NCBI RefSeq assembly: GCF_014250675.1
Contig: NZ_JACHTG010000004.1
Coordinates: forward strand, 496,001 to 560,000
Source: Cetobacterium sp. 8H
GTDB taxonomy: Bacteria > Fusobacteriota > Fusobacteriia > Fusobacteriales > Fusobacteriaceae
Direction: 5' to 3'
DNA: 64,000 bases
The notes beneath the pieces are model-generated. The model did not search any database and was not told the origin of the DNA. It saw nothing but the letters and a program-made list of their open reading frames with translations. This document shows positions 4,924 to 26,404 of this stretch, in pieces; the first letter of the stretch is position 1, and every line of letters begins with the position of its first letter. The position numbers were made by a program, and so were the translations under genes.

Positions 4924-4936
4924 TTGCTCCCCTTTT

Positions 4937-5914: not shown

Positions 5915-5915
5915 A

Positions 5916-9736: not shown

Positions 9737-10750
9737 TTAGAATTTTGGATTCAAGATACTTGCTGTTCTTTCAAAAATATCTAATCCCTGTTGCTTTAAC
9801 CAGAATGGAATATCAATTAATACCCAGTTTTCAGATAATTTATCTCCATCTCTATAGTAAACATCTACAACTTGCATATCTGCTTTTACTTTTCCACCAG
9901 GTAATCCTAACCATCCACCAATCGGTGTATTTGATAGGTTTGGCCATCCGAAGAAACAACTGAAGTTTCCTTCAGCAAATCTACAAACATGTCCATTAAA
10001 TACCTTATCTGTTAGACTACTTCTAAATGGAAGTGAGTGCTGAGCTATATATCTTGGTATAGTGTAGCTTGCTCCAACTCCTGCCGGTCCATACCAGATC
10101 ATATTCTTAGACCATGATGGCTCTAATACATCTGGAGTTATTCCCATAGCTCCACTTTTATTTAAAGCTGATAGATCATCTACCATCTTATTTACAAGAG
10201 CTAATGTTTTTACTCCCTCTTCTTCAGGAGCATCTTCAAATAATAATCCATCATGATTTCTTGGTCCTGGATAAACAAAATATTGTCCTGTTGATGGTGG
10301 TAATGGATATACTCCCGCTTGGTGCATAAATCCTAATAGGTCCACAAATAAACCTGTCTTTACGATTTTACCATCTTCTATACATGAAAACTCTGCATAT
10401 CTAAGATTTATCATTTTCCCAGTAGGTCTAATTCCTAAATACTCCTCATCAAATAGTCCCATGAAGTGACCCATTGACATTACCCACTCTTCTCCTGCAA
10501 CCTCATTTGTTCCTGCTATGAAAACGTCTTGTCTTCTTTGAAGGTGTTTTACTGAAGTCATTAGTGGTTTCCAAAAAGTTTCTGCAGTTGCTACAGCTCC
10601 TTCTTGCTCTCTAAATGGATAAACTCCTCTCCATAAGTAGTTTTCAGTTGTATATTGTTTTAATACCTCTTCAACTGTCTCAGGAGTTGCATTTTCCATT
10701 GCAGCAAAGTATTCTCTTACTATTTTTTTACTCGTTTGATATTTAGACAT
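9737..10750 (-). CDS. duplicated SnoaL/NTF2-like domain protein of unknown substrate
   Basis: The 337-residue soluble protein reads as two NTF2/SnoaL-type cone domains, roughly residues 5-150 and 185-330. Each has the N-terminal helix followed by curved sheet and aromatic residues (ENYLWRGVYPF; MIWYGPAGVGASYTI). The family includes polyketide cyclases and isomerase/dehydratase-like enzymes, and also non-catalytic members. It is the only candidate enzyme in an operon with two transporters and a LacI regulator, so it probably acts on the imported compound, for example as an isomerase, epimerase or lactone/ester-processing protein. The reaction is not known. No signal peptide is seen. Confidence 0.7.
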   Translation of the reverse strand: MSKYQTSKKIVREYFAAMENATPETVEEVLKQYTTENYLWRGVYPFREQEGAVATAETFWKPLMTSVKHLQRRQDVFIAGTNEVAGEEWVMSMGHFMGLFDEEYLGIRPTGKMINLRYAEFSCIEDGKIVKTGLFVDLLGFMHQAGVYPLPPSTGQYFVYPGPRNHDGLLFEDAPEEEGVKTLALVNKMVDDLSALNKSGAMGITPDVLEPSWSKNMIWYGPAGVGASYTIPRYIAQHSLPFRSSLTDKVFNGHVCRFAEGNFSCFFGWPNLSNTPIGGWLGLPGGKVKADMQVVDVYYRDGDKLSENWVLIDIPFWLKQQGLDIFERTASILNPKF

Positions 10751-10771: not shown

Positions 10772-12025
10772 TTATTTCTCTTTTTTATATAAAATTCCTG
10801 TTTCAAGAGTTTCTGGTAATGTTAACCAAAGTATTGCAGCTAGTGTAAATAATATTGGTGCACCCCACATTGCAGTTTGTAATGATGTTGCATTTCTCAC
10901 TGCCACAACAATACTAGGAGCAAATAAAGCTATTATTCTTCCACCGTGGAACAGTGAAGCTCCCATACTCTTTAAATGTCTTGGGAATAACTCTGTAAAA
11001 TATCCTCCCCATATTGCACTTGAAGAAAGTCCAATTCCGTATAAGAATCCACATATTGAAAGTATCATAACACTACTTGGTGCTACAAAGTACAGACCAA
11101 TCATTAAAGATGAAAGCATGAATCCAAAAGCATTAACTTTTCTTCCAAATTTATCTGCAACAAATCCCCATACGTATGCTCCTATTAAAGAACCTGAAGA
11201 TGCTGCTGAGAATAAAATTCCCATTGTTTTAGCGTCAAAATTTCTTACCTCTCTTAAATAAACAGTTACAAATCCACTAAAGAATTGATATCCTATAAAG
11301 TTTAATCCCGATAAAAGTATACATGTTATAGATATTTTAGCTAACTTTCCAGAGAACATCTCTTTCCAAGTTCCTCTTTTATCTTCTTCAACCTTGCTCT
11401 CATTATCGCCTTCTTTTTCACTGCCAAATGGAATATATTTTTTCTCATTTGGTACTAAAAATGCCATAGCTATTGCAGCTATTACTGGTGGTAATCCACC
11501 GATTACCATAAGCATCTCCCAATTACTTTCTCCTAATAAAGCTCCGTAAGCTCCCATTATTATTAAAGCTATTGAAAATAGACTCGATGCAAATGCTGTA
11601 ACTTTACCTCTTACTTTAGCAGTAAATAATCCTACCATGATAGTTACTGCAACTGTAAAATATCCACCTAAAGATATTCCAATTATGAATCTCATAATCA
11701 TCCAAGTTTCAAAAGATCTACTTGAAATGTTGATTAGAGTAGCCCCACCATTTAATAAAGTAATTAAAATAAGAATTTTCTTTCTTCCAAAATTTTCTGC
11801 AAACCATGCACAACTTAAAGCTCCTATTAGTGCTCCTATAGACTGTGCTGTATAAAACAGTGCCGTTTGTCCCAGTGTTATTCCATAATATTGAACTAAA
11901 AATGGTCTCACATAATCAATAACTACAAAGTTATAACAGTAGAAAAAATATCCAACTAAGATTACTAAATATGCCATAAGACGCTTTAATAATGATAGTT
12001 CACTCATATGTTTCACATTATTCAT
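10772..12025 (-). CDS. MFS transporter
   Basis: The 417-residue protein has 12 predicted membrane segments, a cytoplasmic loop at about residue 200-225 rich in Glu/Lys, and MFS signature motifs (FGRKKIL after TM2; GFVADKFGRKVNAFG after TM8). It resembles the aromatic-acid/sugar-acid H+ symporter group. It is the first gene of the operon, directly behind a strong promoter and a palindromic operator. Substrate unknown; the pairing with a SnoaL-like protein and a Na+ symporter suggests an organic acid or sugar derivative. Confidence 0.88.
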   Translation of the reverse strand: MNNVKHMSELSLLKRLMAYLVILVGYFFYCYNFVVIDYVRPFLVQYYGITLGQTALFYTAQSIGALIGALSCAWFAENFGRKKILILITLLNGGATLINISSRSFETWMIMRFIIGISLGGYFTVAVTIMVGLFTAKVRGKVTAFASSLFSIALIIMGAYGALLGESNWEMLMVIGGLPPVIAAIAMAFLVPNEKKYIPFGSEKEGDNESKVEEDKRGTWKEMFSGKLAKISITCILLSGLNFIGYQFFSGFVTVYLREVRNFDAKTMGILFSAASSGSLIGAYVWGFVADKFGRKVNAFGFMLSSLMIGLYFVAPSSVMILSICGFLYGIGLSSSAIWGGYFTELFPRHLKSMGASLFHGGRIIALFAPSIVVAVRNATSLQTAMWGAPILFTLAAILWLTLPETLETGILYKKEK

Positions 12026-12201: not shown

Positions 12202-13779
12202 TTATTTTATTTCTAAATGCTTATGTAGAGTGTTTCTTACTCCTCCAACCTCTTTAATCATCTCTAAGAAATATTCCTCTATTAATTCTGCCATCCCAAT
12301 CTGAACTAAATCTACTCCAAATATATCTTTATTAGAAAGTATTTTATCTAAACTTGATTTCTTATAACTACTTAAATTCAAATACTCAATCTCTTTGAAG
12401 CTTTCTTTTAATTCTTCTAACAATGGATCGCTACTTAAAGGCATGCTTGCACCTGCGTCATCTACTTCCATTAAGTATCTCATCCAACCAGCTATAACCA
12501 AAGGTATATATCTCAATCTTTTTACATCTAAATTTTCATTTTCAATATAAGCTTTGATAGTTTCTCCAAATCTAATTCCTACTTTTTGTGATGTATCTGT
12601 AGCTATTCTTTGTGGCTGATCTGGTATAAATGGATTTGAAAATCTCTCCTCTAAAACCTCTTCTAAAAACTTCTTTGGATTAATTATTTTAGGATCTTCA
12701 ACAACTATTAAAGATTCTTTATATCCAATTTTTCTCACTAATGTACTTAGCTCCAAATCTTGCATACAATCTGCAATACTTTTTTTATTTAACAAACAAC
12801 CATATATAGCTAAAGTTGTATGTAGAGGATTTAAGCATGTTGTTACCTTCATTCTTTCAACTTTTTCGACTAATTCTCTATTAGTTAAAATAACTCCCGC
12901 TTCTTCAAATTTTGGTCTTCCATTTGGAAACTTATCTTCAACAACAAAATACTCAGGTACTTCTGCATTTACAAAAGGTGCTGTAAAAGAATTCTTTTTA
13001 GTTATAATTATATCCATATTTTTCAATCCTAAACTCTCTAAAAACTCTTTAATTTCCAATGATGGTCTAGGTGTTATTTTATCTATCATCGTTATTGGAT
13101 AGCTTACTTTTTTTTCATTTTGCAAGTAATCTAAAAATGACTTATCTACCAGACTATTTTTTATCCATTCATTTACTATTATTTCTATAGCCTCTTTTAT
13201 TTTATCACCATTTGCCGAACAATTATCCATACTAAGTAAAGATATTGGGGCTTGATTTTTCTTATAACGTAAATATAATAAATAGGCTATTTTTGTCATC
13301 AAATGCTTTGGTTCTTTAATTCCATTTTTGAAATCTTCCTCTATAACATCTAAATATAAACCTTTGGTATTTTTTAAATTATAGCCTTTTTCTGTTATAG
13401 TAAAACTAATTATTTGTAAATTTTCATTTGTACATATCTCTTCTAATCTTTTGTTTTTATCAGTAGTTGCATCAATGCTTTCAACTATACTAGATATTAT
13501 TTCTGATTTAAACTCTCCCTTTTTATCTAAAGTAACTAATACAGTTTCATTATTATATGGATTAAATACCTTTTCAATAATTTCTCCATCAAAAGTTTCC
13601 GCAACAATAATTCCAGTATCCTCTAATCCTTTTTCTAGTAAAGTTTGCTGAACTTTTCCCATATATCCTCTAAATATATTTCCTGCTCCAAAATGTAGCC
13701 ATTTAGGAGACTTTGAAGTTTTTTCCTTTAACTTAATTATATCAAAATTTGGATGAGTAATATTTCTTATCATAAACAT
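12202..13779 (-). CDS. uxuB: mannitol dehydrogenase family oxidoreductase, probable D-fructuronate (mannonate) reductase
   Basis: At 525 residues it is the size of UxuB/UxaB polyol dehydrogenases. The N-terminal Rossmann segment has HFGAGNIFRGYMGK (about residue 30-43). A FPNGRP element and the TTCLNPLHTTLAIYG stretch typical of the long-chain mannitol dehydrogenase family follow. The expected reaction is NADH-dependent interconversion of D-fructuronate and D-mannonate. It directly follows uxuA (TAATG overlap), which fixes the pathway; tagaturonate reductase is the alternative but would be expected beside uxaA. A second ATG six bases on (13773) has better spacing from GAGGGG and may be the true start. 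Confidence 0.85.
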   Translation of the reverse strand: MFMIRNITHPNFDIIKLKEKTSKSPKWLHFGAGNIFRGYMGKVQQTLLEKGLEDTGIIVAETFDGEIIEKVFNPYNNETVLVTLDKKGEFKSEIISSIVESIDATTDKNKRLEEICTNENLQIISFTITEKGYNLKNTKGLYLDVIEEDFKNGIKEPKHLMTKIAYLLYLRYKKNQAPISLLSMDNCSANGDKIKEAIEIIVNEWIKNSLVDKSFLDYLQNEKKVSYPITMIDKITPRPSLEIKEFLESLGLKNMDIIITKKNSFTAPFVNAEVPEYFVVEDKFPNGRPKFEEAGVILTNRELVEKVERMKVTTCLNPLHTTLAIYGCLLNKKSIADCMQDLELSTLVRKIGYKESLIVVEDPKIINPKKFLEEVLEERFSNPFIPDQPQRIATDTSQKVGIRFGETIKAYIENENLDVKRLRYIPLVIAGWMRYLMEVDDAGASMPLSSDPLLEELKESFKEIEYLNLSSYKKSSLDKILSNKDIFGVDLVQIGMAELIEEYFLEMIKEVGGVRNTLHKHLEIK

Positions 13780-14852
13780 TATCCCCTCTTCTCTTGTCTA
13801 TTTAAACTATCCCATATCCCCCACATATACATTATTCCGAGAGCTCTATCATATAATCCATATCCTGGTCTACACTTCTCACCCCATATGTGTCTACCAT
13901 GATCCGGTCTAGCATATCCTTCAAATCCAGCTTCATGATAAGCTTTTACAACATCATATATATCAATAGATCCATCACATGTTCTATGTGAAGTTTCTAT
14001 AAAATCTCCATTTTCATATATCTTTACATTTCTAATATGAGTAAATGGTATTCTATCTGAAAATTCTCTTACAATAGCTGGAATATCGTTTTCTGGACTT
14101 GCACCTAAAGAACCTGAACAAAGAGTTAATCCATTTGATGGACTATCAACCAATTCTAATAATCTCTTTAAATTTTTTCCTGATGTCATAAGTCTAGGTA
14201 ATCCAAATATTGACCAAGGTGGATCATCTGGATGAATTGCCATTTTTATTCCATTTATTTCTGCTACTGGAATAATTTGTTCTAGGAAATATTTTAAATT
14301 CTCCCATAATTTTTCTTCATCTACTTCTTTATATGCTTCAAATAAGTTCTCTAATTTTTCAAATTTTTCAGGTTCCCAACCTGGCATTGTGTAGCCTTCA
14401 CTTCCCTTACTTACATTCTTTATAAGCTCCATTGGATCTACATTTTTTACTTTTGCATTTTCATAAAATAAAGCGGTTGATCCATCTTCTAATTCTTTAA
14501 ATAAGTCTGTTCTTGTCCAATCAAATACTGGCATAAAATTATAACAAATTACTTTAACTCCAACTTTAGACAAATTCTCAATAGTTTTTTTATAGTTTTC
14601 TATATATTTTTCTCTTGTTGGTAATCCTAATTTTATGTCTTCATGAACATTGACACTTTCAACTACATCTATATGTAATCCTGCTTTTTCAGCTTGATTT
14701 TTTATTTCTACTATTCTTTCCATCGGCCAAACATCTCCAACAGGAACATCATGCAATGCCCATACAACTCCTTCTACTCCTGGAATTTGTTTGATTTGAG
14801 ATAATTCAACACTATCATTACCTTCTCCATACCATCTAAATGTCATCTTCAT
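13779..14852 (-). CDS. uxuA: D-mannonate dehydratase
   Basis: The 357-residue protein matches UxuA throughout: FRWYGEGND at 5-13, HPDDPPWSIFGLPR at 207-220 (metal and substrate residues), then CSGSLGASPEND and HIRNVK, and a C-terminal YARPDHGRHIWGE. It is a TIM-barrel, metal-dependent enzyme converting D-mannonate to 2-keto-3-deoxy-D-gluconate. It is in operon with uxuB (overlap) and the upstream zinc dehydrogenase (17-bp gap). No KDG kinase or aldolase is visible in the window, so the final steps must be encoded elsewhere. Confidence 0.95.
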   Translation of the reverse strand: MKMTFRWYGEGNDSVELSQIKQIPGVEGVVWALHDVPVGDVWPMERIVEIKNQAEKAGLHIDVVESVNVHEDIKLGLPTREKYIENYKKTIENLSKVGVKVICYNFMPVFDWTRTDLFKELEDGSTALFYENAKVKNVDPMELIKNVSKGSEGYTMPGWEPEKFEKLENLFEAYKEVDEEKLWENLKYFLEQIIPVAEINGIKMAIHPDDPPWSIFGLPRLMTSGKNLKRLLELVDSPSNGLTLCSGSLGASPENDIPAIVREFSDRIPFTHIRNVKIYENGDFIETSHRTCDGSIDIYDVVKAYHEAGFEGYARPDHGRHIWGEKCRPGYGLYDRALGIMYMWGIWDSLNRQEKRG

Positions 14853-14869
14853 GATTTTTTCTCCCTCAT

Positions 14870-15886
14870 CTAAAATGTTAGTACTATTTTACAAATTTCA
14901 TTTGGTTTATTTTCTATTAAATCCATAGCCTTATCAACATCTTCAAAATGTATAACATTTGATATCAATTTCTTAGCTTGTAATTTTCTATTATTAAATA
15001 GTTGAACAACATTTTCAAATTTATGTGTTTGATGTCTTGATCCTCTAATATCTAGTTCTTTTATTGTTATACCTAATTGAGCAATTTCAGATGTATCTTT
15101 TGAAAATCCTAAACACATAACTCTTCCTGCAACAGATGTTATTTCAATAGCCTGTTCAAATGTTTTTGGTAAACAAACTGCATCTATAGTAACATTTGAT
15201 CCCATCCCTTTTGTTATATCTTTCACTTTAGCTAATGGATCTTCTAAATTTGGATTTATTACATAATCAGCACCTAACTCTTTAGCTACTTGTAACCTTT
15301 TTTCATTAAAATCTGATATTATGCATATCCCACCTTTTAATTTAGCCATCTCTAAAACACATAACCCTATCGGACCAGCACCAATTATGAAAACATAATC
15401 ATCCTTTCTTATATCGGCTCTCCAAGTTATTTGATCAGCTATTGTATACGGTTCTATCATCGCTGCTTCTTCCCAAGAAATTGAATCATCAAATTTAAAT
15501 ATATTTTTTCTTGGAGCTACATAATATTGCTGAAAACCACCATCTACATGGCATCCTCTAACTTTTAAGCTTGCACATGCATTTGGTCTTCCTGATTTAC
15601 ATGCATAACATTCTCCACATGCTATCATTGGTTCTATAACAACTTTATCTCCTATTTTTAAATCATCAACTTCCTTTCCAATATCTATAACTTCTCCAAC
15701 CATTTCATGTCCTATTACTCTTGGATAAGTTGCCACTGGAGAAGTCCCATGATATATATGAACATCTGATCCACATATTCCTGCTGCTTTTATTCTTACT
15801 AGAACATCTGTTGCTTCAGATATTTTAGGTATTTCTCTTTCTACTATTTGTAATTCTTTTGGTTTAGACACTATTATCGCTTTCAT
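14870..15886 (-). CDS. zinc-dependent alcohol dehydrogenase of the RspB/L-gulonate 5-dehydrogenase type
   Basis: A 338-residue medium-chain dehydrogenase with catalytic-zinc residues C38 (GICGSD) and H60/E61 (GHE), structural-zinc cysteines C90, C93, C96 and C104, and the NAD motif GAGPIG at 169-174. The overall pattern, including the C-terminal GITIKELDIRGSR and ICKIVLTF, follows E. coli RspB and the L-gulonate 5-dehydrogenases that oxidise L-gulonate to D-fructuronate. Sitting immediately before uxuA and uxuB, that activity would feed them. L-idonate 5-dehydrogenase or another sugar-acid oxidation is the alternative. Confidence 0.75.
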   Translation of the reverse strand: MKAIIVSKPKELQIVEREIPKISEATDVLVRIKAAGICGSDVHIYHGTSPVATYPRVIGHEMVGEVIDIGKEVDDLKIGDKVVIEPMIACGECYACKSGRPNACASLKVRGCHVDGGFQQYYVAPRKNIFKFDDSISWEEAAMIEPYTIADQITWRADIRKDDYVFIIGAGPIGLCVLEMAKLKGGICIISDFNEKRLQVAKELGADYVINPNLEDPLAKVKDITKGMGSNVTIDAVCLPKTFEQAIEITSVAGRVMCLGFSKDTSEIAQLGITIKELDIRGSRHQTHKFENVVQLFNNRKLQAKKLISNVIHFEDVDKAMDLIENKPNEICKIVLTF

Positions 15887-15895
15887 TTTTTCCTC

Positions 15896-16873
15896 CTATT
15901 GCTTAGCTTTTTGAACTTCTTCTATTAATTCAGTTCCATTTTTCTTACTAAATTCTTCCCAAATATATTTCGTTCTTTCAATAAAAGGTTCTATAGAATC
16001 AACTTTATTAAAAACAACTCCATGATTTTTTAAATTATCAATAATATCATTTTCTTTTTCTGTCCATAATTTTCTTTGGAAATTTTGAGCATCCTTAGCA
16101 GCATTTTTTACTATATTTTGCTCCTGAGGTGTTAATTTCGAATAAACTTTTTTAGACATTAATAAAACATCTGGAGCCATTAAGTGATTTGTTTCAGAAA
16201 AATACTTTGTTACTTCATATAATTTTAATGAATATAATGTTGTTGGACTATTTTCCCAACCATCTAAAACGCCTTGCTCTAAAGCTCCATAAACTTCGCC
16301 TTGCTCCATAGGAGTAGCAATTGCTCCCATAGCATTTCCAATAGCTATCGTTACATTTGATGGTTGAACTCTAATTTTTAGCCCCTTTAAATCTTCAGGT
16401 TTATAAATTGGTTTTTTATTATTCATTATACTTCTACTTCCACCATCTAACCAAAATAAAGGCACAAATCCTTTATCTTCAAGTTTTTCTCCAATCATTT
16501 CACCTGGTTTTCCATCAAGAGCGGCATGTAAATGCTCTGTACTTTGGAACATATATGGTAAAGAAACAATTTCTGCTTGAGGAACAAATTGAGCTAATGG
16601 TCCTGCAGTTACCATAACCATCTCTAAAGTTCCTAATAATAACCCTTCTAATCCATCTCTGTTACCACCAAGCTGAGAACTATTAAAAACTTTTACATCC
16701 AACTCTCCATTTGTTTCTGACTTTACTTTATCAGCAAAATATTGTAATGCTTCTACTGATGGATTATCACCTGGTAAAGTTGTTGATATTTTTAAAGTTT
16801 TTGCCGCAAATGACTCAATTGATAAAGCTAACATTAAAGTTGCTACTTTGATTATTGATAAATATTTTTTCAT
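15896..16873 (-). CDS. TRAP transporter substrate-binding protein (DctP family)
   Basis: The 325-residue protein begins with a signal peptide (residues 1-23, ending SFAA) and has the DctP fold. LPGDNPSVEALQYFADKV occurs near residue 34, and LKGLKIRVQPS contains the arginine that binds the ligand carboxylate. It captures a sugar acid in the periplasm and delivers it to the DctQM membrane pair encoded just upstream. YiaO, which binds 2,3-diketo-L-gulonate, is the most relevant relative given the yiaK and yiaL homologs in this operon; L-gulonate or mannonate are other candidates. Confidence 0.9.
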   Translation of the reverse strand: MKKYLSIIKVATLMLALSIESFAAKTLKISTTLPGDNPSVEALQYFADKVKSETNGELDVKVFNSSQLGGNRDGLEGLLLGTLEMVMVTAGPLAQFVPQAEIVSLPYMFQSTEHLHAALDGKPGEMIGEKLEDKGFVPLFWLDGGSRSIMNNKKPIYKPEDLKGLKIRVQPSNVTIAIGNAMGAIATPMEQGEVYGALEQGVLDGWENSPTTLYSLKLYEVTKYFSETNHLMAPDVLLMSKKVYSKLTPQEQNIVKNAAKDAQNFQRKLWTEKENDIIDNLKNHGVVFNKVDSIEPFIERTKYIWEEFSKKNGTELIEEVQKAKQ

Positions 16874-16898
16874 AAATATCCCCTCACTTTTTATTTTT

Positions 16899-18182
16899 TT
16901 ATTTTATATATCCTAATACTCTTGGTAAAAATGTTGTTATTGCTGGTATAAATGTTATTAAAATCAGTACAATTATCATAGTTAATATATATTTTAAATA
17001 AGTTCCTAAAACTTCACCTAAAGAAGCCTCTGATATTCCAGTTGATACAAATAAGGTTATACCTACAGGTGGAGTACATTGACCTATTGCCATATTTACT
17101 ATTGTCATAAGACCAAAGTGAATTGGATGAATACCTAATTTCATAATTATTGGAAATACTATAGGTATTACTATAATTATTATAGGTGTTATGTCTAAAA
17201 ATGTACCCATAAATAGCATTAATCCATTTACTAAAAATAAAATAACCCATTTATTCGTTGAAACTCCAAATATAAACTCTGATATTTTTGCTGGAATACT
17301 TTCAGCTGTTAATATCCACCCAAAACTTGAAGCTGCAGCAATACATAAAACTACTACTCCTGTTGTTGTTGCTGTTGATAATAGTATTTTAGGTAAATCT
17401 TTCATTTTCAACTCCTTATATATAAACATTCCAACAACAAATGCATATATTGCAGCTACTACTGATGCTTCACTTGGAGTAAAAATTCCACCTACTATTC
17501 CACCTACTATTATTACCATTGTCATAATTGCCAAAATTGCATCTTTAAATGCATTCCAAATCTCTTTTAATGATGCTTTCGGTTCTGGTTCTAATTTTCT
17601 AACCACAGCAAATATATAACTTGTTATCATTAGAGCTACTCCCATAAGAATTCCTGGTAATATTCCACCAGCAAATAAAGCTCCTATTGAAATATTCGCA
17701 GTTACTCCTAATAATATCATAGGTATACTCGGAGGAATTATTATCCCTATTGATCCCGCTGTTGCCATAACTGAAGTTGCAACATCTTTTCCATATCCTT
17801 TTTTTATCATAGCTGGAATTAATATACTACCTACAGCTGCAGTATCTGCAGCTGCAGCTCCTGAAATACCCGCAAAAAACATAGCTCCCAAAATACTTGC
17901 AAATGTTAATCCACCCCTAATATGTCCAACCATACAAGAGGCAAACTTAACTAATCGTCTTGATATACCACCATTCTCCATAAAGCCACCTGCCAATATA
18001 AAAAATGGAATCGCAACCAAAGTAAATGAACTACTAGAAGTATACATTCTTTGAATTATAGATATTAAGCTTATATCACTTGCAAAACCTAATGCAGTCA
18101 TAGAAGATATTGCTAAAGCAAAGGATACTGGCATTTGAAGTACTAAAAAAATAACAAATGATGAAAATAATAAAAAGGCCAT
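16899..18182 (-). CDS. TRAP transporter large permease (DctM/YiaN family)
   Basis: The 427-residue protein has about 12 membrane segments and characteristic DctM motifs (AIPFFILAGGFMENGGISRRL; GSIGIIIPPSIPMI; CTPPVGITLF). It is the ion-coupled transport subunit that works with the small DctQ subunit (2-bp gap) and the periplasmic binding protein. The gene order small-large-binding protein is the same as yiaMNO. Confidence 0.94.
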   Translation of the reverse strand: MAFLLFSSFVIFLVLQMPVSFALAISSMTALGFASDISLISIIQRMYTSSSSFTLVAIPFFILAGGFMENGGISRRLVKFASCMVGHIRGGLTFASILGAMFFAGISGAAAADTAAVGSILIPAMIKKGYGKDVATSVMATAGSIGIIIPPSIPMILLGVTANISIGALFAGGILPGILMGVALMITSYIFAVVRKLEPEPKASLKEIWNAFKDAILAIMTMVIIVGGIVGGIFTPSEASVVAAIYAFVVGMFIYKELKMKDLPKILLSTATTTGVVVLCIAAASSFGWILTAESIPAKISEFIFGVSTNKWVILFLVNGLMLFMGTFLDITPIIIIVIPIVFPIIMKLGIHPIHFGLMTIVNMAIGQCTPPVGITLFVSTGISEASLGEVLGTYLKYILTMIIVLILITFIPAITTFLPRVLGYIK

Positions 18183-18184
18183 AT

Positions 18185-18706
18185 TTATTCTCCTCCTTGT
18201 TTTATATTAGAATGTAAATCTGTTAACAAGTGAATAAACATAAAAAAACCAGATAATGGAACGACCATACAAGGCCAAAACATTGTAAATGGCATTACTG
18301 ACATCGTTTGAAATCTATTTATTGATGCAAATTCATATCCATCTTTCATCATTAAAATCGTAAAAATTATCATTAATATTTTTATAAAAATGAAAATTAT
18401 TCCTCTTATATTTGGAGATAACTTTGAAGTAAATAAATCTACTTCAAAGTGCTTATTTTTAGCTAATGCAAATGCGGCTCCTAAAAAACTTACCCAAATA
18501 AAAGAATATGTCAATAACTCCTCAGACCAAGATATTGGTTTTTTTATAACAAATCTTGATAAAATTTGAAGTGCAGCTAAAACTACCATCTCTAATATCA
18601 AAAACATTAATACTGTTTTTTCAAATCTTATTATTATAGAATTTAATCTCTCCAATAATGAAATTTTATTCTTAATCTCATTCAACAACAATACATCTTC
18701 AGTCAT
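18185..18706 (-). CDS. TRAP transporter small permease (DctQ/YiaM family)
   Basis: A 173-residue protein with four membrane segments after a cytoplasmic N-terminus of about 30 residues. The middle contains the DctQ pattern SWSEELLTYSFIWVSFLGAAFA and KNKHFEVDLF. It is essential for assembly of the TRAP transporter with the adjacent DctM subunit. It starts 15 bp after the YiaK homolog in the same operon. Confidence 0.92.
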   Translation of the reverse strand: MTEDVLLLNEIKNKISLLERLNSIIIRFEKTVLMFLILEMVVLAALQILSRFVIKKPISWSEELLTYSFIWVSFLGAAFALAKNKHFEVDLFTSKLSPNIRGIIFIFIKILMIIFTILMMKDGYEFASINRFQTMSVMPFTMFWPCMVVPLSGFFMFIHLLTDLHSNIKQGGE

Positions 18707-18721
18707 AAAATTTCTCCTTAA

Positions 18722-19726
18722 TTACATAGATTTTATTTTATTCCAAACCTCTTCATGAACAGGAATTCCTAATTGTAAATTTTCATTTCTTTTTATTTTT
18801 TCAAGTTCACCTGGATAAAAAATAGTTCCATCTTTTTCAACTGGGTCTGATCCTTTTATATAATCTATTGTACTATTTACTATATTTTCCATAGCTTCAG
18901 TTCCAGCTATTCTTTCAGCATCGATGGCTATTAAAACTTGTGACAAAGCAAACTCATCTCCGCCCAATTTTCCAACTTCTTCACAACTATTTCCGCCAGA
19001 TAATACTGCTGCTATCAAATCTAATAATATTGATAGTCCAGAACCTTTCCAAAATCCAATTGGTAAAACTCTCCAAGTCTTTTCTATTTCAACTGGATCA
19101 TTTGTTATATTTCCTGCCAAATCATATCCACCAGGAACAGGCAATTTTTCTCCTCTTAATTTTGCTGCTTCCATTTGTCCATATGAAAATTGAGCAACAG
19201 CTACATCTGCAACAATATGTCCATCTTTTCTTGGAACAGAAAAAATAATTGGATTATTTCCTATTCTTCTTTCACTTGCTCCCCAAGCTGGCATATTTGG
19301 TTGAGTATTTGTCCAACAAATTCCGATACATCCAGCTTCTGCAGCTTGCCATCCATATGTCCCACCTCTTAACCAATGGTTTGTATTTTGAATTGCAACT
19401 GCTCCTATTCCATATTGTTTTGCAAGTTCAATTGCTCTATCCATAGCCTTTTTAGCTGTTATATTTCCTAATCCTAAATTACCATTCCATCTTTCAAATG
19501 CTCCCATATTTGCAACTACATTCGGTTCTGCTACTGGATCTATATATCCTTTTTCTATATATTCAAAAATTCTTGGAAATCTATTTACTCCATGCGAATA
19601 AACCCCATCACAACTTGTTTCTGTAAATAATTGTGATGCGCTTTCTGCTTTCTCTTCTGAAAATCCTTTTTTTAATAAAACTCTCTTAAATTCAGTTTTC
19701 ATATCTTCAAATTTAACTCTTAACAT
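18722..19726 (-). CDS. yiaK: 2,3-diketo-L-gulonate reductase (YiaK/DlgD, LDH2/MDH2 family)
   Basis: The 334-residue protein aligns along its length with E. coli YiaK as I remember it: GVYSHGVNRFPR at 41-52 with catalytic H45, then NTNHWLRGGTYGWQAAE, GICWTNT, GNNPI, PIGFWKGSGLSI and a matching C-terminus. The known reaction is NADH-dependent reduction of 2,3-diketo-L-gulonate to 3-dehydro-L-gulonate. It lies directly before TRAP genes and after yiaL, as in the yia operon. Unlike the yia operon, no lyxose kinase-like or 3-keto-L-gulonate-6-phosphate decarboxylase gene is present. Confidence 0.88.
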   Translation of the reverse strand: MLRVKFEDMKTEFKRVLLKKGFSEEKAESASQLFTETSCDGVYSHGVNRFPRIFEYIEKGYIDPVAEPNVVANMGAFERWNGNLGLGNITAKKAMDRAIELAKQYGIGAVAIQNTNHWLRGGTYGWQAAEAGCIGICWTNTQPNMPAWGASERRIGNNPIIFSVPRKDGHIVADVAVAQFSYGQMEAAKLRGEKLPVPGGYDLAGNITNDPVEIEKTWRVLPIGFWKGSGLSILLDLIAAVLSGGNSCEEVGKLGGDEFALSQVLIAIDAERIAGTEAMENIVNSTIDYIKGSDPVEKDGTIFYPGELEKIKRNENLQLGIPVHEEVWNKIKSM

Positions 19727-19739
19727 CTCTATCGCTCCT

Positions 19740-20723
19740 TTAGTTTTTATTATATTTTTTTAAAACTTCATCTGATATTTCTTGAGCTCTTATAGAACTT
19801 TCCAAACTTCCTGAATGTTTTTTTCCACTCAACAATTCATTTACAATCTCTTGTATATATGGTTGCTGAACATGAATTAAATCAGCAAAAATAAACTCTT
19901 CTATACCTTGATGTGTTATTATCTTTACATTTCCATTATTAAAACAAGAAAATTCAATTTTACCTTCAGAACCAACTATTATTACTTCATCTTTCCATTC
20001 AAATGTTGAAAAGCACCATTTCCCAATACCTATAACGCCATTTTCAAAATCCATAATTGTTGTTACTATGTCTTCAACATCATAGTATCCACCTTGATTT
20101 TTTACCAAGGATTGAATATTTTTAATAGGACCAATTATATAATCTAAAATATCTATTGTGTGGATTCCCATATCTAAAAATATTCCTCCACCTGAAATAT
20201 CTTTTTTAAATCTCCAAGGTAAATCCTTACCATTTTTTATATCTATTGGAATTTGTTGATTTAAAGTAATATCTACATATCTGACATCTCCTATTTTTTT
20301 TAAATCAACTAACTCTTTTATTTTTTTAAATTTTTCCATCCCTCTTCTATAAAAAGCTGTAAAAACTTTAACATTATTTCTCTCTGCCGCTTCTTTAATT
20401 TCTAAACATTCTTCAAATGTTGTTGCTATTGGCTTTTCAATGTATACATCTTTTTTAGCTTCAATAGATTTTAATGCATAATATTTATGATATTTAGGTG
20501 GTGTTGCTATATAGACTGCATTTACTAAATCGCTTTTTATTAATTCTTCTGGATTTAAAAATACTTTTTCTACATTGTGCCTCTTAGCATAATCTTTCAC
20601 CTGCTCTAAATCAACCCCTGTAACTGCCACTAATTTTGAATTTCTGGCTTTATATAAACCTGGCCCACTTTTTACTTCTGTAACTTCACCTGTTCCAATC
20701 ATTCCCCATCTTACTTCAGTCAT
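19740..20723 (-). CDS. Gfo/Idh/MocA family NAD(P)-dependent oxidoreductase
   Basis: The 327-residue protein has an N-terminal Rossmann fold (GMIGTGEVTEV at 7-17), the EKP signature at 96-98 and the GIHTIDILD histidine/aspartate motif (near residue 180) of Gfo/Idh/MocA enzymes. These act on secondary hydroxyls of sugars, inositols and sugar acids. Its position between yiaL (4-bp overlap) and yiaK suggests it handles an intermediate of diketogulonate/gulonate catabolism. Reduction of 3-dehydro-L-gulonate to L-gulonate would link the two halves of the operon; this is a hypothesis. Confidence 0.85.
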   Translation of the reverse strand: MTEVRWGMIGTGEVTEVKSGPGLYKARNSKLVAVTGVDLEQVKDYAKRHNVEKVFLNPEELIKSDLVNAVYIATPPKYHKYYALKSIEAKKDVYIEKPIATTFEECLEIKEAAERNNVKVFTAFYRRGMEKFKKIKELVDLKKIGDVRYVDITLNQQIPIDIKNGKDLPWRFKKDISGGGIFLDMGIHTIDILDYIIGPIKNIQSLVKNQGGYYDVEDIVTTIMDFENGVIGIGKWCFSTFEWKDEVIIVGSEGKIEFSCFNNGNVKIITHQGIEEFIFADLIHVQQPYIQEIVNELLSGKKHSGSLESSIRAQEISDEVLKKYNKN

Positions 20724-21202
20724 TTTTTAATCTCCTCTAAAAGATTTTTATGAATTTTAATTACTATTTTTTTTATTATCTCTTTTTCAATTCCTATACA
20801 TCCTGGTCTGTGAACATCATTAGGAAAGAATACTGCAAAATCTCCAGGAATCATATTTATAAATGATTCCGAGCTACAGTTCTGATAGAATAATATATCT
20901 CGATTTTCATCATAATTTTTATAGACTACATTTTCATCACAATCTATTGAAAATCCTATTTTCTCTGAGCCTTTTGCTAAGAAGTGGACATCTAAATAAT
21001 TTTTATGAATTTCTGGTAGTTTTTTTTCAATTAAATCTGTTTCTAAATCAATTACTTGGATGTACATTTCATCATTTTTTAGCTTATAAGTTCCACACTT
21101 TAATTGTTCTAAATTAGTTTCTAAAAGATAATTTAAAGCTTCTCTTAACACTCCTGGATAAATACTTAAACTTCCTAAATTATGAATATTTCCAAATATC
21201 AT
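20720..21202 (-). CDS. yiaL: YhcH/YjgK/YiaL family cupin-like protein
   Basis: The 160-residue protein contains the DUF386 features: a conserved LPEIHKNYLDVHFLAKGSEKI segment (two histidines and an acid), and a later PGDFAVFFPNDVHRPGC metal-site strand. The family is a small metal-binding beta-barrel found with sialic-acid, gulonate and uronate operons and proposed to be an anomerase/isomerase or lactone-processing protein; its reaction in yia operons is unsettled. It is the first gene of the sugar-acid operon, 17 bp downstream of a GntR-type operator. Confidence 0.85.
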   Translation of the reverse strand: MIFGNIHNLGSLSIYPGVLREALNYLLETNLEQLKCGTYKLKNDEMYIQVIDLETDLIEKKLPEIHKNYLDVHFLAKGSEKIGFSIDCDENVVYKNYDENRDILFYQNCSSESFINMIPGDFAVFFPNDVHRPGCIGIEKEIIKKIVIKIHKNLLEEIKK

Positions 21203-21218
21203 ATACCCTCCATACGCT

Positions 21219-21236
21219 TGTTGTATACTTCATTAA
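21219..21236. promoter_or_regulatory. GntR-type operator 1 (sugar-acid operon)
   Basis: TGTTGTATACTTCATTAA matches 21368-21385 at 17 of 18 positions and has a GTATAC core. It lies directly after the -10 of the minus-strand operon promoter. Confidence 0.7.
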
Positions 21237-21321: not shown

Positions 21322-21367
21322 CGATATATTGTTTTTTATTTTATTTTTATTTTATTTTTTATAAAAA

Positions 21368-21385
21368 TGTTGTATACTTTATTAA
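21368..21385. promoter_or_regulatory. GntR-type operator 2 (gntR leader)
   Basis: Second copy of the 18-bp element, ending 26 bp before the regulator start codon. It suggests autoregulation. Confidence 0.65.
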
Positions 21386-21411: not shown

Positions 21412-22089
21412 ATGGATGAAAATAAATATAATGGAAATATGATTTATAATATCTTAAAGAAAGATATTATAAGCTTAAAATTAAAACCAGGTGAAAGCAT
21501 AAAAGAAACTGAAATTTCTAAAAGACTTAATGTTAGTCGAACCCCTGTTAGAGAAGCTTTCATTAAATTAGCAACTGAAAATTTAGTTAAAGTAACTCCT
21601 AAAAGAGGAAGTTACGTTTCTCTTATTTCTACATCCCAAATTTTAGAGGGGTTTTTTCTACGACTTACTATGGAAAAAGCTATACTTCTTTCAGCTTGTA
21701 AAAATTTTCCTCCTGAGTACTTGATAAGATTAAAAGAAAATTTAAAAATTCAAAAATTACTTTTAGAAAGTAGTCAAGATTATATTAATTTTCATAAATT
21801 TGATAATCTTTTTCACTCTATTATATATGAAGGATGTGGAATGAAAGGTATTTGGGATTTAATTGAGCAGCATTGTTCTCATTATCATCGACTAAGAGTT
21901 CTATGGGATTCATCTATCGAAACTGTAAATTTGAATAAAACTATTCAAGGTCATGAAAAAATTATTGAACTTATTGAATTTTCTAAAGATAATGAAATAG
22001 AAACTGTTGTTAATAACCACATAAAAACTCTTGTTGACACACTAGATGAACTCAAATCAAATTTCCCATTTTTTTTTGAAAAGCAATAA
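21412..22089 (+). CDS. GntR-family regulator (FadR/FCD subfamily)
   Basis: The 225-residue protein has a winged helix at its N-terminus (LKPGESIKETEISKRLNVSR, then TPVREAFIKL) and an all-helical FCD effector domain with metal-site histidines (FDNLFHSIIYEG; HCSHYHRLR; NNHIKTLV). The ATG at 21412 is preceded by GAGGTG at proper spacing. An upstream in-frame extension to 21262 encodes only a Phe-rich nonsense stretch and is rejected. It is divergent from the yia/uxu operon and lies inside the same repeat-bounded block, so it is the probable local repressor, responding to a sugar acid. Confidence 0.92.
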   Translation: MDENKYNGNMIYNILKKDIISLKLKPGESIKETEISKRLNVSRTPVREAFIKLATENLVKVTPKRGSYVSLISTSQILEGFFLRLTMEKAILLSACKNFPPEYLIRLKENLKIQKLLLESSQDYINFHKFDNLFHSIIYEGCGMKGIWDLIEQHCSHYHRLRVLWDSSIETVNLNKTIQGHEKIIELIEFSKDNEIETVVNNHIKTLVDTLDELKSNFPFFFEKQ

Positions 22090-22249: not shown

Positions 22250-23710
22250 TTATATTTCTTTTAAAGCAGGATACAATCTCTTAAACTTCAAATATTTCTC
22301 ATCATAAATTTTCCTATTGTTTTCATTCGGATACTTTGTATCTACAACTTTTATCAGTGCCTCACATGCGGCATTTACATCTTTATATAACCCATCTCCA
22401 ACCATAGCTAAAATTGCTGCTCCATAAGCGGGTCCCTCTGTTGAATTAACAGTATCGACTCTCAAATTAAATATATCCGCTATCATTTGCTTCCAAAATT
22501 CACTTTTTGAACCTCCGCCACTCACTCTAACTATATCTGTAGAGATGCCCATAGATTTTATTAGCTCTAACGAGTCTCTAAGTGCAAATGTTATCCCTTC
22601 CACAATACATCTTGTTATATCCCCTCTCCTATGCTGAATATTTAAACCTGTCAGCGTTCCTTTAGCATTAGGATCATTATGTGGTGTTCGTTCACCCATT
22701 AAATATGGTAAGAAAAACAAATTTTTATCTATCTGTGAGCTCATGGCCTCTTTTTCTAAAAATATATCATAGTCTTTAGAGTGATTTATATCCTCTACCC
22801 ACCACTTCAATGAAGCTGCAGCTGAAAGCATAACCCCCATCTGATGATATCCTCCATTGGCATGACAAAACGAATGCAGTCTCGCTTCTTCATCTGCAAA
22901 ATATTTAGAACTATTTGCAAATACAACTCCTGAAGTTCCAAGTGCAACTGAGAGAACTCCCTCTTTTACAACTCCAACTCCCACTGCTCCTACTGCTTGA
23001 TCACCACCACCAGCTATAATCTTAACCTTATTATTTATTCCCAACTCTTTTTTTGCTTTTTCCGATAGCTCTCCCACCACTTCAAATGATTCATGTAACT
23101 TTGGTAACTGCAGCTCACTTAATTCCAACTCCTTTAGCAGTTCTGTTGCCCACTCCCTTTTTTCAACATTTAAAAGTAGCATTCCAGAAGCGTCAGAAAC
23201 ATCTGTCGAATAATCTCCACTCAACTTAAAAGTTATATAATCTTTAGGAAGCATTATTTTATTGATTTTCTTAAAATTTTCACTTTCATTTTCTTTTAAC
23301 CAAAGTAGTTTTGGAGCTGTAAATCCTGTTAAAGCTTTATTTCCTGTAAGTTCTATTATTTTCTTTCCATACCGACTATTTAACGTCTCACATTGTGATG
23401 AAGTTCTTTGATCACACCACAGTATAGCCGGTCTGATCACTTTATCCTCTTTATCTAAAACTACCATCCCATGCATTTGTCCACTAAAACTTATAGCTTT
23501 TATATCATTCTCATATCCTTTTATAAGTTCTTTTAATCCATCAAAAGTCGATTTTTCCCAATCCTCTGGATTTTGCTCCATCCAGTTTTCTTTTGGATAC
23601 TGTAATGAATACTCTTTTACAACACTCTTTACAATCTCTCCCTTAGAGTTAACTAAAAGCAACTTTACAGAAGATGTTCCTAAATCTATACCTATATACA
23701 ACTCAATCAC
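22250..23710 (-). CDS. xylB: xylulokinase
   Basis: The 486-residue FGGY-family kinase opens with the ATP-site IGIDLGTSSVKLLLV, has FSGQMHGMVVLD near residue 77 and AILWCDQRTSSQ near 95 (substrate region), and the second nucleotide motif RVSGGGSKSEFWKQM. It phosphorylates D-xylulose to xylulose 5-phosphate for the pentose phosphate pathway. It is the last gene of the xylose operon, 11 bp after the permease gene. Confidence 0.95.
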   Translation of the reverse strand: MIELYIGIDLGTSSVKLLLVNSKGEIVKSVVKEYSLQYPKENWMEQNPEDWEKSTFDGLKELIKGYENDIKAISFSGQMHGMVVLDKEDKVIRPAILWCDQRTSSQCETLNSRYGKKIIELTGNKALTGFTAPKLLWLKENESENFKKINKIMLPKDYITFKLSGDYSTDVSDASGMLLLNVEKREWATELLKELELSELQLPKLHESFEVVGELSEKAKKELGINNKVKIIAGGGDQAVGAVGVGVVKEGVLSVALGTSGVVFANSSKYFADEEARLHSFCHANGGYHQMGVMLSAAASLKWWVEDINHSKDYDIFLEKEAMSSQIDKNLFFLPYLMGERTPHNDPNAKGTLTGLNIQHRRGDITRCIVEGITFALRDSLELIKSMGISTDIVRVSGGGSKSEFWKQMIADIFNLRVDTVNSTEGPAYGAAILAMVGDGLYKDVNAACEALIKVVDTKYPNENNRKIYDEKYLKFKRLYPALKEI

Positions 23711-23721
23711 CTCTAAGTTTT

Positions 23722-24864
23722 TTATTTTTTATTTTTGCTCATGATATCAAATAGTACAGCTAGTAAAAGAATCATCCCTTTAACTACATATTGCCACGAT
23801 GGCTCTACATTCATCATACTCATTCCATTATCTAAACTTGCCATAACAAGAGCACCTAATATCGCACCAAAAACAGTTCCTACTCCTCCAGAAGTACTAG
23901 CTCCTCCTATATAACAAGCTGCTATTGCATCTAGCTCAGCATTTGTCCCTGCCGAAACTGAAGCTGCAGCCAATCTAGATGTTAGAATTAAACCTGCTAT
24001 CGCTACAAGCATTCCGTGAACAACATATATTGAAATTTTTATTTTATCCACATTTATTCCTGATAGTCTTACGGCCTCTTTATTTCCTCCAATAGCATAC
24101 ATCAATCTTCCAAAAACTGTCTTTTTTGAAACAAATGAAAAAATTGCTATGAATATTGCTAAAATCATTACTGGTGTCGGTACTCCATAATATTGATTCA
24201 ATAAAAAAACTCCTACCAATAAAGAACATGATTTCAATCCTAATTTTAAATAATTTTCTGACTCATTTCCTACCTTAATTCCATTTTCAATCTTATTTTT
24301 TCTATCTAAGATACTTGTAAAAAACATAGCAAAAATTAAAACTCCTACAATCAGATAGCTTAAATAGTTAGGAAGATAACTTTGTCCAATAATTTTGAAA
24401 GTTGGTGTTACAGGTGCTATTGTTCTCCCTCCTGTAATCCCTACAAGAATTCCTCTAAAGGCAAGCATTCCAGCTAGTGTTACAATAAACGATGGAATTT
24501 TTAAAGAAACCCAAAATCCATTCCAAAGTCCTATTAACATCCCTAGTAACAAGGTTATTACTATTACAGAGAACACACCAAATCCTAACTTAACATTTAA
24601 GATGGCAGCTATTCCACCTAGCAAAGCCATAGCAGATCCAGCGGATAGATCTATCTCATTAGAAATTATTACAAATATCATTCCAATAGATATCATCCCT
24701 GTTATAGACATCTGTCTAAAAAGATTGGATATATTTCTTGCTGTTAAAAATTTTCCGTCTGTCAAAAAATAAAATGTTATCCAAATAACTGCTATCGATA
24801 CTAAAATCATAAATATATTCTGTTTCATTAAATCTTTTAAAGTAGATCCTTTACTTTCACTCAT
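23722..24864 (-). CDS. xylH: xylose ABC transporter permease
   Basis: The 380-residue polytopic protein has about 10 membrane segments and shows the BPD_transp_2 pattern of sugar ABC permeases (EIDLSAGSAMALLGGIAAI; GGNKEAVRLSGINVDKIK; GGASTSGGVGTVFGA). It forms the membrane channel with XylG and the periplasmic XylF, encoded next to it. It is one base from xylG, so the two are translationally linked. Confidence 0.94.
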   Translation of the reverse strand: MSESKGSTLKDLMKQNIFMILVSIAVIWITFYFLTDGKFLTARNISNLFRQMSITGMISIGMIFVIISNEIDLSAGSAMALLGGIAAILNVKLGFGVFSVIVITLLLGMLIGLWNGFWVSLKIPSFIVTLAGMLAFRGILVGITGGRTIAPVTPTFKIIGQSYLPNYLSYLIVGVLIFAMFFTSILDRKNKIENGIKVGNESENYLKLGLKSCSLLVGVFLLNQYYGVPTPVMILAIFIAIFSFVSKKTVFGRLMYAIGGNKEAVRLSGINVDKIKISIYVVHGMLVAIAGLILTSRLAAASVSAGTNAELDAIAACYIGGASTSGGVGTVFGAILGALVMASLDNGMSMMNVEPSWQYVVKGMILLLAVLFDIMSKNKK

Positions 24865-24865
24865 T

Positions 24866-26383
24866 TTAGCCTCCTATGGCTGTTTCCATTATTTTTTCTT
24901 GAGTTAACCCAGTATTTTCAAGAATTCCCTTCACTTCACCTTCATGCATAACCATCACTCTATCACTTAGTCCTAAAACTTCTGGAAGCTCTGATGAAAT
25001 CATTATTATTGATATTCCTTGATTAACCAATTCAAACATATATTTATATATCTCATATTTTGCACCTACATCTATTCCCCTTGTAGGTTCATCCAATATT
25101 AAAATTTTTGGAAGTGTCAACAGATTCTTTCCAATAACAACCTTTTGTTGATTACCACCACTTAAATTTTTTATTAAACTATCTATGTTAGGAGCTTTAA
25201 CTTTCATTGTTTTCATCATTGATACAATATCTTTAAGCTCTTCATTTTCTTTTATAAAAAAGTTCCATTTACTATATTTTTCAATATTTGATAGACTCAT
25301 GTTCTCTTTTACAGATAGCATACCAACTATCCCATACTTCTTTCTATCTTCTGGGACCATTGCGATACCTTTCTTTACAGCCTCATTAGCATTTTTTATA
25401 TTTATTTTCTCTCCAAAATATACTATCTCTCCCGAATAGTTCCCTCTATATGAACCGTATATGCTCGAAACCAGCTCTGTTCTTCCTGCACCTATCAGTC
25501 CAGCTATTCCTAATATTTCCCCTTTTCTCAAGTTAAAATTAGCATCCTTAACTCTATATTTAGTAGATGAAAATATATCAAAAACATTAAAATTTTTAAC
25601 TTCTAATATCACTTCACCCACTTCATGCTCTTCATACGGAAATAGATTATTCAACTCTCTTCCAACCATCATTTTTATAATTTCCTCTTGAGTTAGACCA
25701 TTTTTATCTTTGATTCCAACCATTTTTCCATCTCTTATTACGGCTACTTGGTCTGATAGTTCCATAACCTCATTCAACTTATGACTTATATAGATACAAG
25801 TAACTCCCTTAGCCTTTAAATCTTTTAAAATTTCAAAAAGAATTTCAACCTCTTTATTTGTAAGTGGAGCGGTAGGCTCATCTAAAATCAAAAGTTTTAC
25901 ATTTTTTAAAAGTGCTTTTCCTATCTCTACAAGTTGTTGCTCTCCAACGCCTAAATCCTTAATTTTTATCAATGGATCTTTATTTAAATTCAACTGATTT
26001 AAAATTCCTTTTGATATTTTGTACATCTCATTATAGCTCATAACTCCGTACTTCGATTTAAAGTTCCCCAGGAATAGGTTTTCTAAAATACTCAACTCCT
26101 GTATCAGATTAAGTTCTTGGTGAATTATTGCTATTCCCAAACTTTCAGAATCTTTTATACCTAAATTTTTTATCTCTTTTCCTTCAAAAATAATCTCTCC
26201 ACTATAAGTTCCATAAGGATATATTCCACTCAAAACTTTCATCAAAGTTGACTTACCTGCTCCGTTCTCACCGCAAAGAGAGAGAATATCTCCCTCTCTT
26301 ACAGTAAGATTCATCTTATCTAAAGCTTTTACTCCTGAGAACTCCTTAGTGATATTCTTCATATCCAATATGTTTTTTTTCAA
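24866..26383 (-). CDS. xylG: xylose ABC transporter ATPase, double-domain
   Basis: A roughly 505-residue sugar ABC ATPase with two nucleotide-binding domains. The first has GENGAGKSTLM and GVGEQQLVEIGKAL. The second has the degenerate Walker A GLIGAGRTEL and an intact LSGGNQQKVVIGKNL signature, as usual in the XylG/RbsA/MglA family. I place the start at the TTG at 26383, 6 nt after GGGGTG; the frame extends to a GTG at 26392 that lies inside that ribosome site. It energises xylose import with XylH and XylF. Confidence 0.93.
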   Translation of the reverse strand: MKKNILDMKNITKEFSGVKALDKMNLTVREGDILSLCGENGAGKSTLMKVLSGIYPYGTYSGEIIFEGKEIKNLGIKDSESLGIAIIHQELNLIQELSILENLFLGNFKSKYGVMSYNEMYKISKGILNQLNLNKDPLIKIKDLGVGEQQLVEIGKALLKNVKLLILDEPTAPLTNKEVEILFEILKDLKAKGVTCIYISHKLNEVMELSDQVAVIRDGKMVGIKDKNGLTQEEIIKMMVGRELNNLFPYEEHEVGEVILEVKNFNVFDIFSSTKYRVKDANFNLRKGEILGIAGLIGAGRTELVSSIYGSYRGNYSGEIVYFGEKINIKNANEAVKKGIAMVPEDRKKYGIVGMLSVKENMSLSNIEKYSKWNFFIKENEELKDIVSMMKTMKVKAPNIDSLIKNLSGGNQQKVVIGKNLLTLPKILILDEPTRGIDVGAKYEIYKYMFELVNQGISIIMISSELPEVLGLSDRVMVMHEGEVKGILENTGLTQEKIMETAIGG

Positions 26384-26404
26384 GATTATCACCCCAAGAT
26401 TTTT

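Follow-up and report, generated by a model that had tools for sequence, protein, structure and literature searches.

What does an operon do that joins genes of yia type to genes of an L-gulonate pathway, and on what substrate does it act? The question is raised by nine genes of Cetobacterium sp. 8H (Fusobacteriota) that occupy positions 12202-21202 of the window, a 64,000-nt stretch of genomic DNA (NZ_JACHTG010000004.1, 496,001-560,000, forward strand). All nine are intact open reading frames on the minus strand; they overlap by no more than 4 bases or are separated by gaps of 2 to 26 bases, and are transcribed in the order YiaL, Gfo/Idh, YiaK, DctQ, DctM, DctP, GulD/RspB-type dehydrogenase, UxuA, UxuB-like enzyme (families were assigned with Pfam and NCBIfam; Table 1). 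A previous sequence-only reading had described just this joining of yia-type genes to GulD/RspB-type, UxuB and UxuA genes with a Gfo/Idh gene among them, and its account of the gene content stands; the divergent GntR gene, the putative operators, the lack of UxaC and the distant KdgA-KdgK pair are additions to it, and the linkage extends further than that reading was aware of. The operon is likely to run via L-gulonate and D-mannonate to 2-keto-3-deoxygluconate (KDG). Its first three genes, the YiaL-Gfo/Idh-YiaK triad, might constitute a widespread new entry to the L-gulonate pathway, although the balance lies somewhat against it: C2 and C3 of the vitamin C product 2,3-diketogulonate would be reduced on the way to KDG with neither phosphorylation nor loss of carbon, providing fermenting anaerobes with a carbon source and an electron sink. 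What sequence provides directly is gene content, tight spacing, conserved linkage, active-site motifs and the lack of alternative enzymes.

The reactions of GulD, UxuB and UxuA are assigned by homology to the conversion of L-gulonate to KDG in Haemophilus influenzae, a pathway (GulPQM, GulD, UxuB, UxuA, KdgK, KdgA) established through assays of the enzymes together with knock-out, transcript and isotope experiments (PMC5788505), with which the steps originally suggested below L-gulonate agree. The GulD/RspB-type enzyme shares 42% identity with E. coli RspB, 35% with LgoD and 28% with IdnD, and has the structural-Zn cysteines 90, 93, 96 and 104; it is a probable L-gulonate 5-dehydrogenase by sequence, and would oxidize L-gulonate at C5 to D-fructuronate. 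The UxuB-like enzyme is below all curated cut-offs (120 bits to fructuronate reductase, for which the cut-off is 603). It carries the K-N-H motif, adjoins UxuA and is 53% identical to the UxuA-adjacent enzyme of three other loci (L035, L047, L168). It is probably a D-fructuronate reductase, forming the D-mannonate that UxuA (which passes its curated cut-off) would dehydrate to KDG. Because the GulD-type and UxuB-like proteins miss their curated cut-offs (336 of 376 and 120 of 603 bits, respectively), their names are kept at family level.

Common to the two systems are a tripartite ATP-independent periplasmic (TRAP) transporter, a dehydrogenase of L-gulonate 5-dehydrogenase type, a fructuronate reductase (a probable one in Cetobacterium), mannonate dehydratase, KdgK and KdgA. 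In contrast with H. influenzae, the Cetobacterium operon adds YiaL, Gfo/Idh and YiaK, its UxuB-like enzyme is very divergent, the KdgK-KdgA pair lies outside it, and its binding protein is not of GulP type. Each protein family is already known, and the operon is classed as a variant of the L-gulonate pathway; since its binding protein matches GulP (Protein Data Bank entry 4pbq) at 1e-33, as against 6e-67 for hexuronate-type binders, it can be said to work like that pathway rather than to be a strict member of it. In the 2.57-Mb, 99% complete genome, the gene that comes after KdgA (PF01081, the sole gene for 2-keto-3-deoxy-6-phosphogluconate aldolase) encodes a sugar kinase resembling KDG kinase; the pair (G000:C4, ~606.6-608.2 kb) is ~90 kb from the operon, and the specificity of the kinase is below curated cut-offs. 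With these two genes present KDG can be finished, and KdgK and KdgA would yield pyruvate and glyceraldehyde 3-phosphate. Thus the description of the route as phosphorylation-free applies as far as KDG but not beyond, where KDG kinase comes next.

If the lower half of the proposed chemistry is the known L-gulonate pathway, the triad must deliver L-gulonate or its precursor. YiaK-type enzymes act at C2 of an α-keto or α-hydroxy acid, and E. coli YiaK converts 2,3-diketogulonate to 3-dehydro-L-gulonate. The YiaK of the operon is 46% identical to the E. coli enzyme and has the catalytic residues His45 and His117. YiaL (43% identity to E. coli YiaL) is a probable sugar-acid anomerase of the DUF386 family. 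Another DUF386 member, YhcH, is an anomerase that opens a cyclic keto acid for use by an aldolase (PMC8141875); by analogy, YiaL could open 3-dehydro-L-gulonate, a compound that would be common to YiaK and Gfo/Idh here and to YiaK and LyxK in the classical operon.

The Gfo/Idh protein has the features of its family: a Rossmann domain, an EKP motif (residues 96-98), the catalytic Asp and His, and matches to PF01408 and PF22725 above cut-off. K97, D184, H188 and many other residues do not vary across an alignment of 15 relatives, of which 13 come from triads, so that the enzyme is probably active. Its AlphaFold2 model has a predicted local distance difference test score (pLDDT) of 87; the nearest folds found with Foldseek, 1,5-anhydrofructose reductase and glucose-fructose oxidoreductase at ~20% identity, indicate the general Gfo/Idh fold and nothing narrower. 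It is the sole oxidoreductase of the operon left without an assigned step, and by context it is proposed to be a 3-dehydro-L-gulonate reductase. The reaction would be the reverse of that of animal L-gulonate 3-dehydrogenase (CRYL1, EC 1.1.1.45), which is not a Gfo/Idh protein but an enzyme of 3-hydroxyacyl-CoA dehydrogenase type (PMC12435205).

In the scheme that follows, the TRAP transporter would import a six-carbon sugar acid more oxidized than L-gulonate, most likely 2,3-diketo-L-gulonate; YiaK would reduce its C2 and Gfo/Idh its C3, yielding L-gulonate, with YiaL opening the ring of the cyclic keto acid, and no decarboxylation or phosphorylation would take place ahead of KDG. This scheme gives every enzyme of the operon a task. 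The steps of YiaK and Gfo/Idh are placed in it by context only, and the double assignment of Gfo/Idh as 3-dehydro-L-gulonate reductase and of diketogulonate as substrate is tentative, a little short of evenly balanced.

The E. coli yiaKLMNO-lyxK-sgbHUE operon also has a YiaK-type reductase, YiaL and a TRAP transporter. The Cetobacterium operon differs in lacking kinase, decarboxylase and epimerases, in probably leading to L-gulonate and KDG, and in having a YiaK of another clade. The absence of the classical kinase and decarboxylase, already remarked on in the earlier reading, was confirmed: the operon encodes neither a LyxK kinase nor an SgbH/UlaD decarboxylase, and a UlaD query found no UlaD/SgbH relative in the whole genome, which rules out, for the decarboxylase, a classical yia/ula route with its genes elsewhere. 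The adjacent FGGY kinase (22250-23710) was rejected as the missing kinase; it is the xylulokinase XylB of a xylose operon. The latter, xylulokinase and a xylose-type ATP-binding cassette transporter, extends over 22250-26392 (minus strand) beyond the GntR gene. The permeases are far below the YiaM/YiaN cut-offs (DctM reaches 287 of the 800 bits of the YiaN equivalog, DctQ 29 of 260) and DctP is 34% identical to E. coli YiaO, so that the transporter is not of YiaMNO type. For want of such a transporter and of kinase and decarboxylase, the operon is not classed as a yia operon.

Scanning 84,980 species genomes with two Gfo/Idh proteins (those of the window and of genome G043) gave 59 loci. By a count of neighbouring genes, the triad is found at 17 loci (the window, L033, L034, L035, L036, L037, L038, L039, L040, L041, L045, L047, L056, L084, L087, L121 and L157), in Fusobacteriota, Bacillota, Spirochaetota and Pseudomonadota; the 17 are not independent events, L087 and L157 being close relatives, as are L035, L036 and L047. 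That the same gene set recurs across phyla rules out chance clustering. Triads are usually accompanied by TRAP genes and by GulD, UxuA or fructuronate reductase. Two loci of Bacillota (L035, L047) have exactly the nine kinds of gene of the window. In G043 (L033) the cluster comprises GntR, GulD, YiaL, Gfo/Idh, YiaK, DctPQM, UxuA and a short-chain dehydrogenase/reductase (SDR) scoring 450 bits as a D-mannonate oxidoreductase (cut-off 281), with KdgK and KdgA nearby; in Acidaminobacter (L040) the triad is joined by TRAP, UxuA, SDR, KdgA, KdgK and a GulD-type gene. Triad, TRAP and GulD occur together in L039, L056 and L157, and in L041 UxuA precedes the triad. Besides the Cetobacterium operon, six related clusters (L033, L035, L038, L040, L041, L047) contain UxuA, and of 14 triad genomes checked 13 have the gene. 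LyxK, SgbH and UxaC are not found within 11 kb of any triad; 11 of 12 triad genomes have no UlaD relative, and the twelfth has a weak 22% match. E. coli YiaO is a 2,3-diketogulonate binder, and the proposed scheme gains support from L034, where the triad adjoins a binding protein sharing 56% identity with it.

Triad members form separate groups in the Gfo/Idh tree, one of Pseudomonadota and one of Bacillota, Spirochaetota and Fusobacteriota, with non-triad homologues between them; the association is therefore ancient or arose on more than one occasion. The placement of the window protein is unsure because of its long branch (1.39). Outside the triads, the nearest relatives are for the most part isolated genes (Trichococcus, Methylomonas) or neighbours of an aldose-epimerase-like gene (Caldilineaceae), surroundings that say little, and the tree gave no substrate. 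Among 98 genomes of the phylum, a close Gfo/Idh homologue occurs only in the organism's own genome and G043, and YiaK in five; neither is present in the remaining 11 genomes of the genus. Homologues so scattered imply that the operon is patchy, gained or often lost.

Several observations weigh against diketogulonate as substrate and against the role proposed for Gfo/Idh. The triad YiaKs are set apart from the E. coli type by a fully supported branch, ~1.5 changes per column, and this long branch makes the curated name of YiaK weak evidence of substrate; genes named 3-dehydro-L-gulonate 2-dehydrogenase divide into at least three clades, and their neighbours differ from clade to clade. The relatives of known function of the Gfo/Idh protein are all distant (best match to a solved structure, 7e-22). 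YiaL-Gfo/Idh pairs stand without YiaK in L042 and L048. An IdnD-like enzyme (344-357 bits, cut-off 469) that would suit L-idonate comes after the triad in L034 and L084. By sequence, the window DctP is nearer to binders of hexuronates and D-glucuronate than to YiaO or 4pbq. Lastly, a cluster on a Klebsiella pneumoniae plasmid (NZ_CP031793, L172; ManD-RspB-MFS-YiaK-YiaL-UxuB-GntR, MFS denoting a major facilitator superfamily transporter) shows that the same lower route can be linked, in the absence of Gfo/Idh, to a YiaK from a different clade.

The Klebsiella cluster resembles the Cetobacterium operon in combining YiaK and YiaL with an RspB-type dehydrogenase, UxuB and a mannonate dehydratase, and in having no kinase or decarboxylase; it differs in having no Gfo/Idh, an MFS in place of a TRAP transporter and an enolase-type ManD in place of UxuA. 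It suits an unlikely alternative in which a 2-keto acid (2-keto-L-gulonate, for example) would enter and YiaK alone would reduce it to L-gulonate for GulD, UxuB and UxuA, Gfo/Idh acting on another carbonyl or anhydro form and YiaL opening the ring. The YiaL-Gfo/Idh pairs that do without YiaK fit such an arrangement, as does the Gfo/Idh protein YjhC, which is reported to act on anhydro or dehydrated sialic acid (PMC7315737). On the other hand, the Klebsiella YiaK (45% identical to that of the window) is of a different clade and may have another substrate, and the alternative leaves no clear task for a Gfo/Idh protein that neighbours YiaL and YiaK at 17 of 17 triad loci. As to the Klebsiella cluster itself, ManD shares 93% identity with E. 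coli RspA and the RspB-type enzyme 77% with E. coli RspB, a likeness suggesting that RspAB is part of a route of gulonate or idonate type. In L182 (G051, 3710-6853), a YiaK from the clade of the Klebsiella plasmid lies beside genes for RraA-like, enolase-superfamily and tripartite-tricarboxylate-transporter-like proteins, neighbours that hint at a different substrate for this clade.

The binding protein points elsewhere. The best structural matches of DctP are 4x8r (6e-67), 4pf8 and 4n8y, which are hexuronate-type binders. DctP also matches 4mhf at 6e-57. The ligand of 4mhf is D-glucuronate (PMC7660916); that of 4pbq is L-gulonate (PMC5788505). Were the substrate a hexuronate (D-glucuronate or a relative), Gfo/Idh would reduce its aldehyde to give L-gulonate, GulD would form D-fructuronate in replacement of UxaC, YiaL would be a uronate anomerase and YiaK would act on a side compound. 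UxaC is indeed missing from the Cetobacterium genome, where a copy elsewhere was ruled out (there is no PF02614 match), and from G043, G100 and G102. However, the other 8 of 12 triad genomes have UxaC and would need no bypass; YiaK, though nearly always present, would have no necessary role; and the binding protein of most triad clusters is of yet another, third kind, only ~30% identical to the window DctP. A hexuronate is judged an improbable substrate. Binding proteins of at least three types occur among the triad clusters; given this variety, and with no solved structure of a diketogulonate binder found for comparison, the binding protein does not settle the substrate.

That the triad ends in L-idonate or another epimer of gulonate, with a route via 5-keto-gluconate or gluconate, is very unlikely: IdnD-like genes adjoin the triad in L034 and L084 (with an IdnO-like SDR in the former) and a fungal glucuronate route does pass through L-gulonate, 2-keto-L-gulonate, L-idonate and 5-keto-gluconate (PMC6353982), but the IdnD- and IdnO-like sequences fall short of their curated cut-offs and UxuA, which acts on D-mannonate, is part of the operon and of its six related clusters. 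These two loci may represent a branch of the route via L-idonate, or one with an IdnD active on L-gulonate. Among other clusters, the two Acidaminobacter loci (L038, L040) have a second YiaK upstream, in L040 with a GulD-type gene; L038 has an additional TRAP system nearer to YiaO, and in L180 (G050) a YiaK lies at a contig end near a fused DctQM TRAP transporter of triad-cluster type.

The whole operon is probably under the control of the divergent GntR regulator, relatives of which adjoin the related operon in L033, L038 and L040. Two copies of TTGTTGTATACTTYATTAA lie between the GntR gene and the operon, the window as a whole having 3 matches against 0.36 expected (no more than 3 mismatches, 64 kb), and the matching divergent region of L033 likewise has two GTATAC sites. 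The two copies are probable GntR operators. Directly downstream of the UxuB-like gene, on the minus strand, are genes for an SnoaL-like domain protein (337 aa, 9737-10750) and an MFS transporter (10772-12025); the 176-base gap that precedes them holds a promoter-like site (12136-12108, 11 of 12 matches).

Table 1. The operon, its divergent regulator and putative operators (window positions)
Feature	Position	Strand	Basis
YiaL/YhcH-type DUF386 protein	20720..21202	-	PF04074 141 bits; TIGR00022 152 bits (cut-off 45.5); operon gene 1
Gfo/Idh/MocA oxidoreductase	19740..20723	-	PF01408, PF22725
YiaK-type Ldh_2 oxidoreductase	18722..19726	-	PF02615; NF009750 460 bits (cut-off 316)
TRAP small permease DctQ	18185..18706	-	PF04290 107 bits
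TRAP large permease DctM	16899..18182	-	PF06808 408 bits
TRAP solute-binding protein DctP	15896..16873	-	PF03480
GulD/RspB-type Zn-dependent dehydrogenase	14870..15886	-	nearest RspB, 336 bits (cut-off 376)
UxuA D-mannonate dehydratase	13779..14852	-	PF03786 571 bits; NF003027 513 bits (cut-off 191)
UxuB-like long-chain mannitol dehydrogenase family protein	12202..13779	-	PF01232/PF08125; KVTTCLNPLH motif at 311
GntR/FCD regulator, divergent	21412..22089	+	PF00392 + PF07729
Putative operator copy 1 (TTGTTGTATACTTCATTAA)	21218..21236	+	upstream of YiaL; pattern search
Putative operator copy 2 (ATGTTGTATACTTTATTAA)	21367..21385	+	upstream of GntR gene; pattern search

The earlier reading knew of no description of this linkage. 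For the YiaL-Gfo/Idh-YiaK module and its connection with L-gulonate this holds, in that no description was found in the open literature (a mention in the Enzyme Function Initiative papers on TRAP binding proteins or on L-gulonate/L-idonate pathways is possible). The joining of YiaK and UxuA with a YiaL-family protein is already on record: genes for all three are among those, mostly of one operon, that agaro-oligosaccharides induce in Ruminococcus gnavus (PMC11581127). The yjmC-yjmD-uxuA-yjmF genes of B. subtilis are similar, and are named here as a lead only.

If the diketogulonate scheme is true, it would give a function to a recurrent, uncharacterised subfamily of Gfo/Idh proteins and put a name to a bacterial 3-dehydro-L-gulonate reductase. 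The annotation of genes now called 3-dehydro-L-gulonate 2-dehydrogenase would have to be corrected. Breakdown products of ascorbate would, unlike in the ula and yia routes, enter central metabolism with all six carbons kept.

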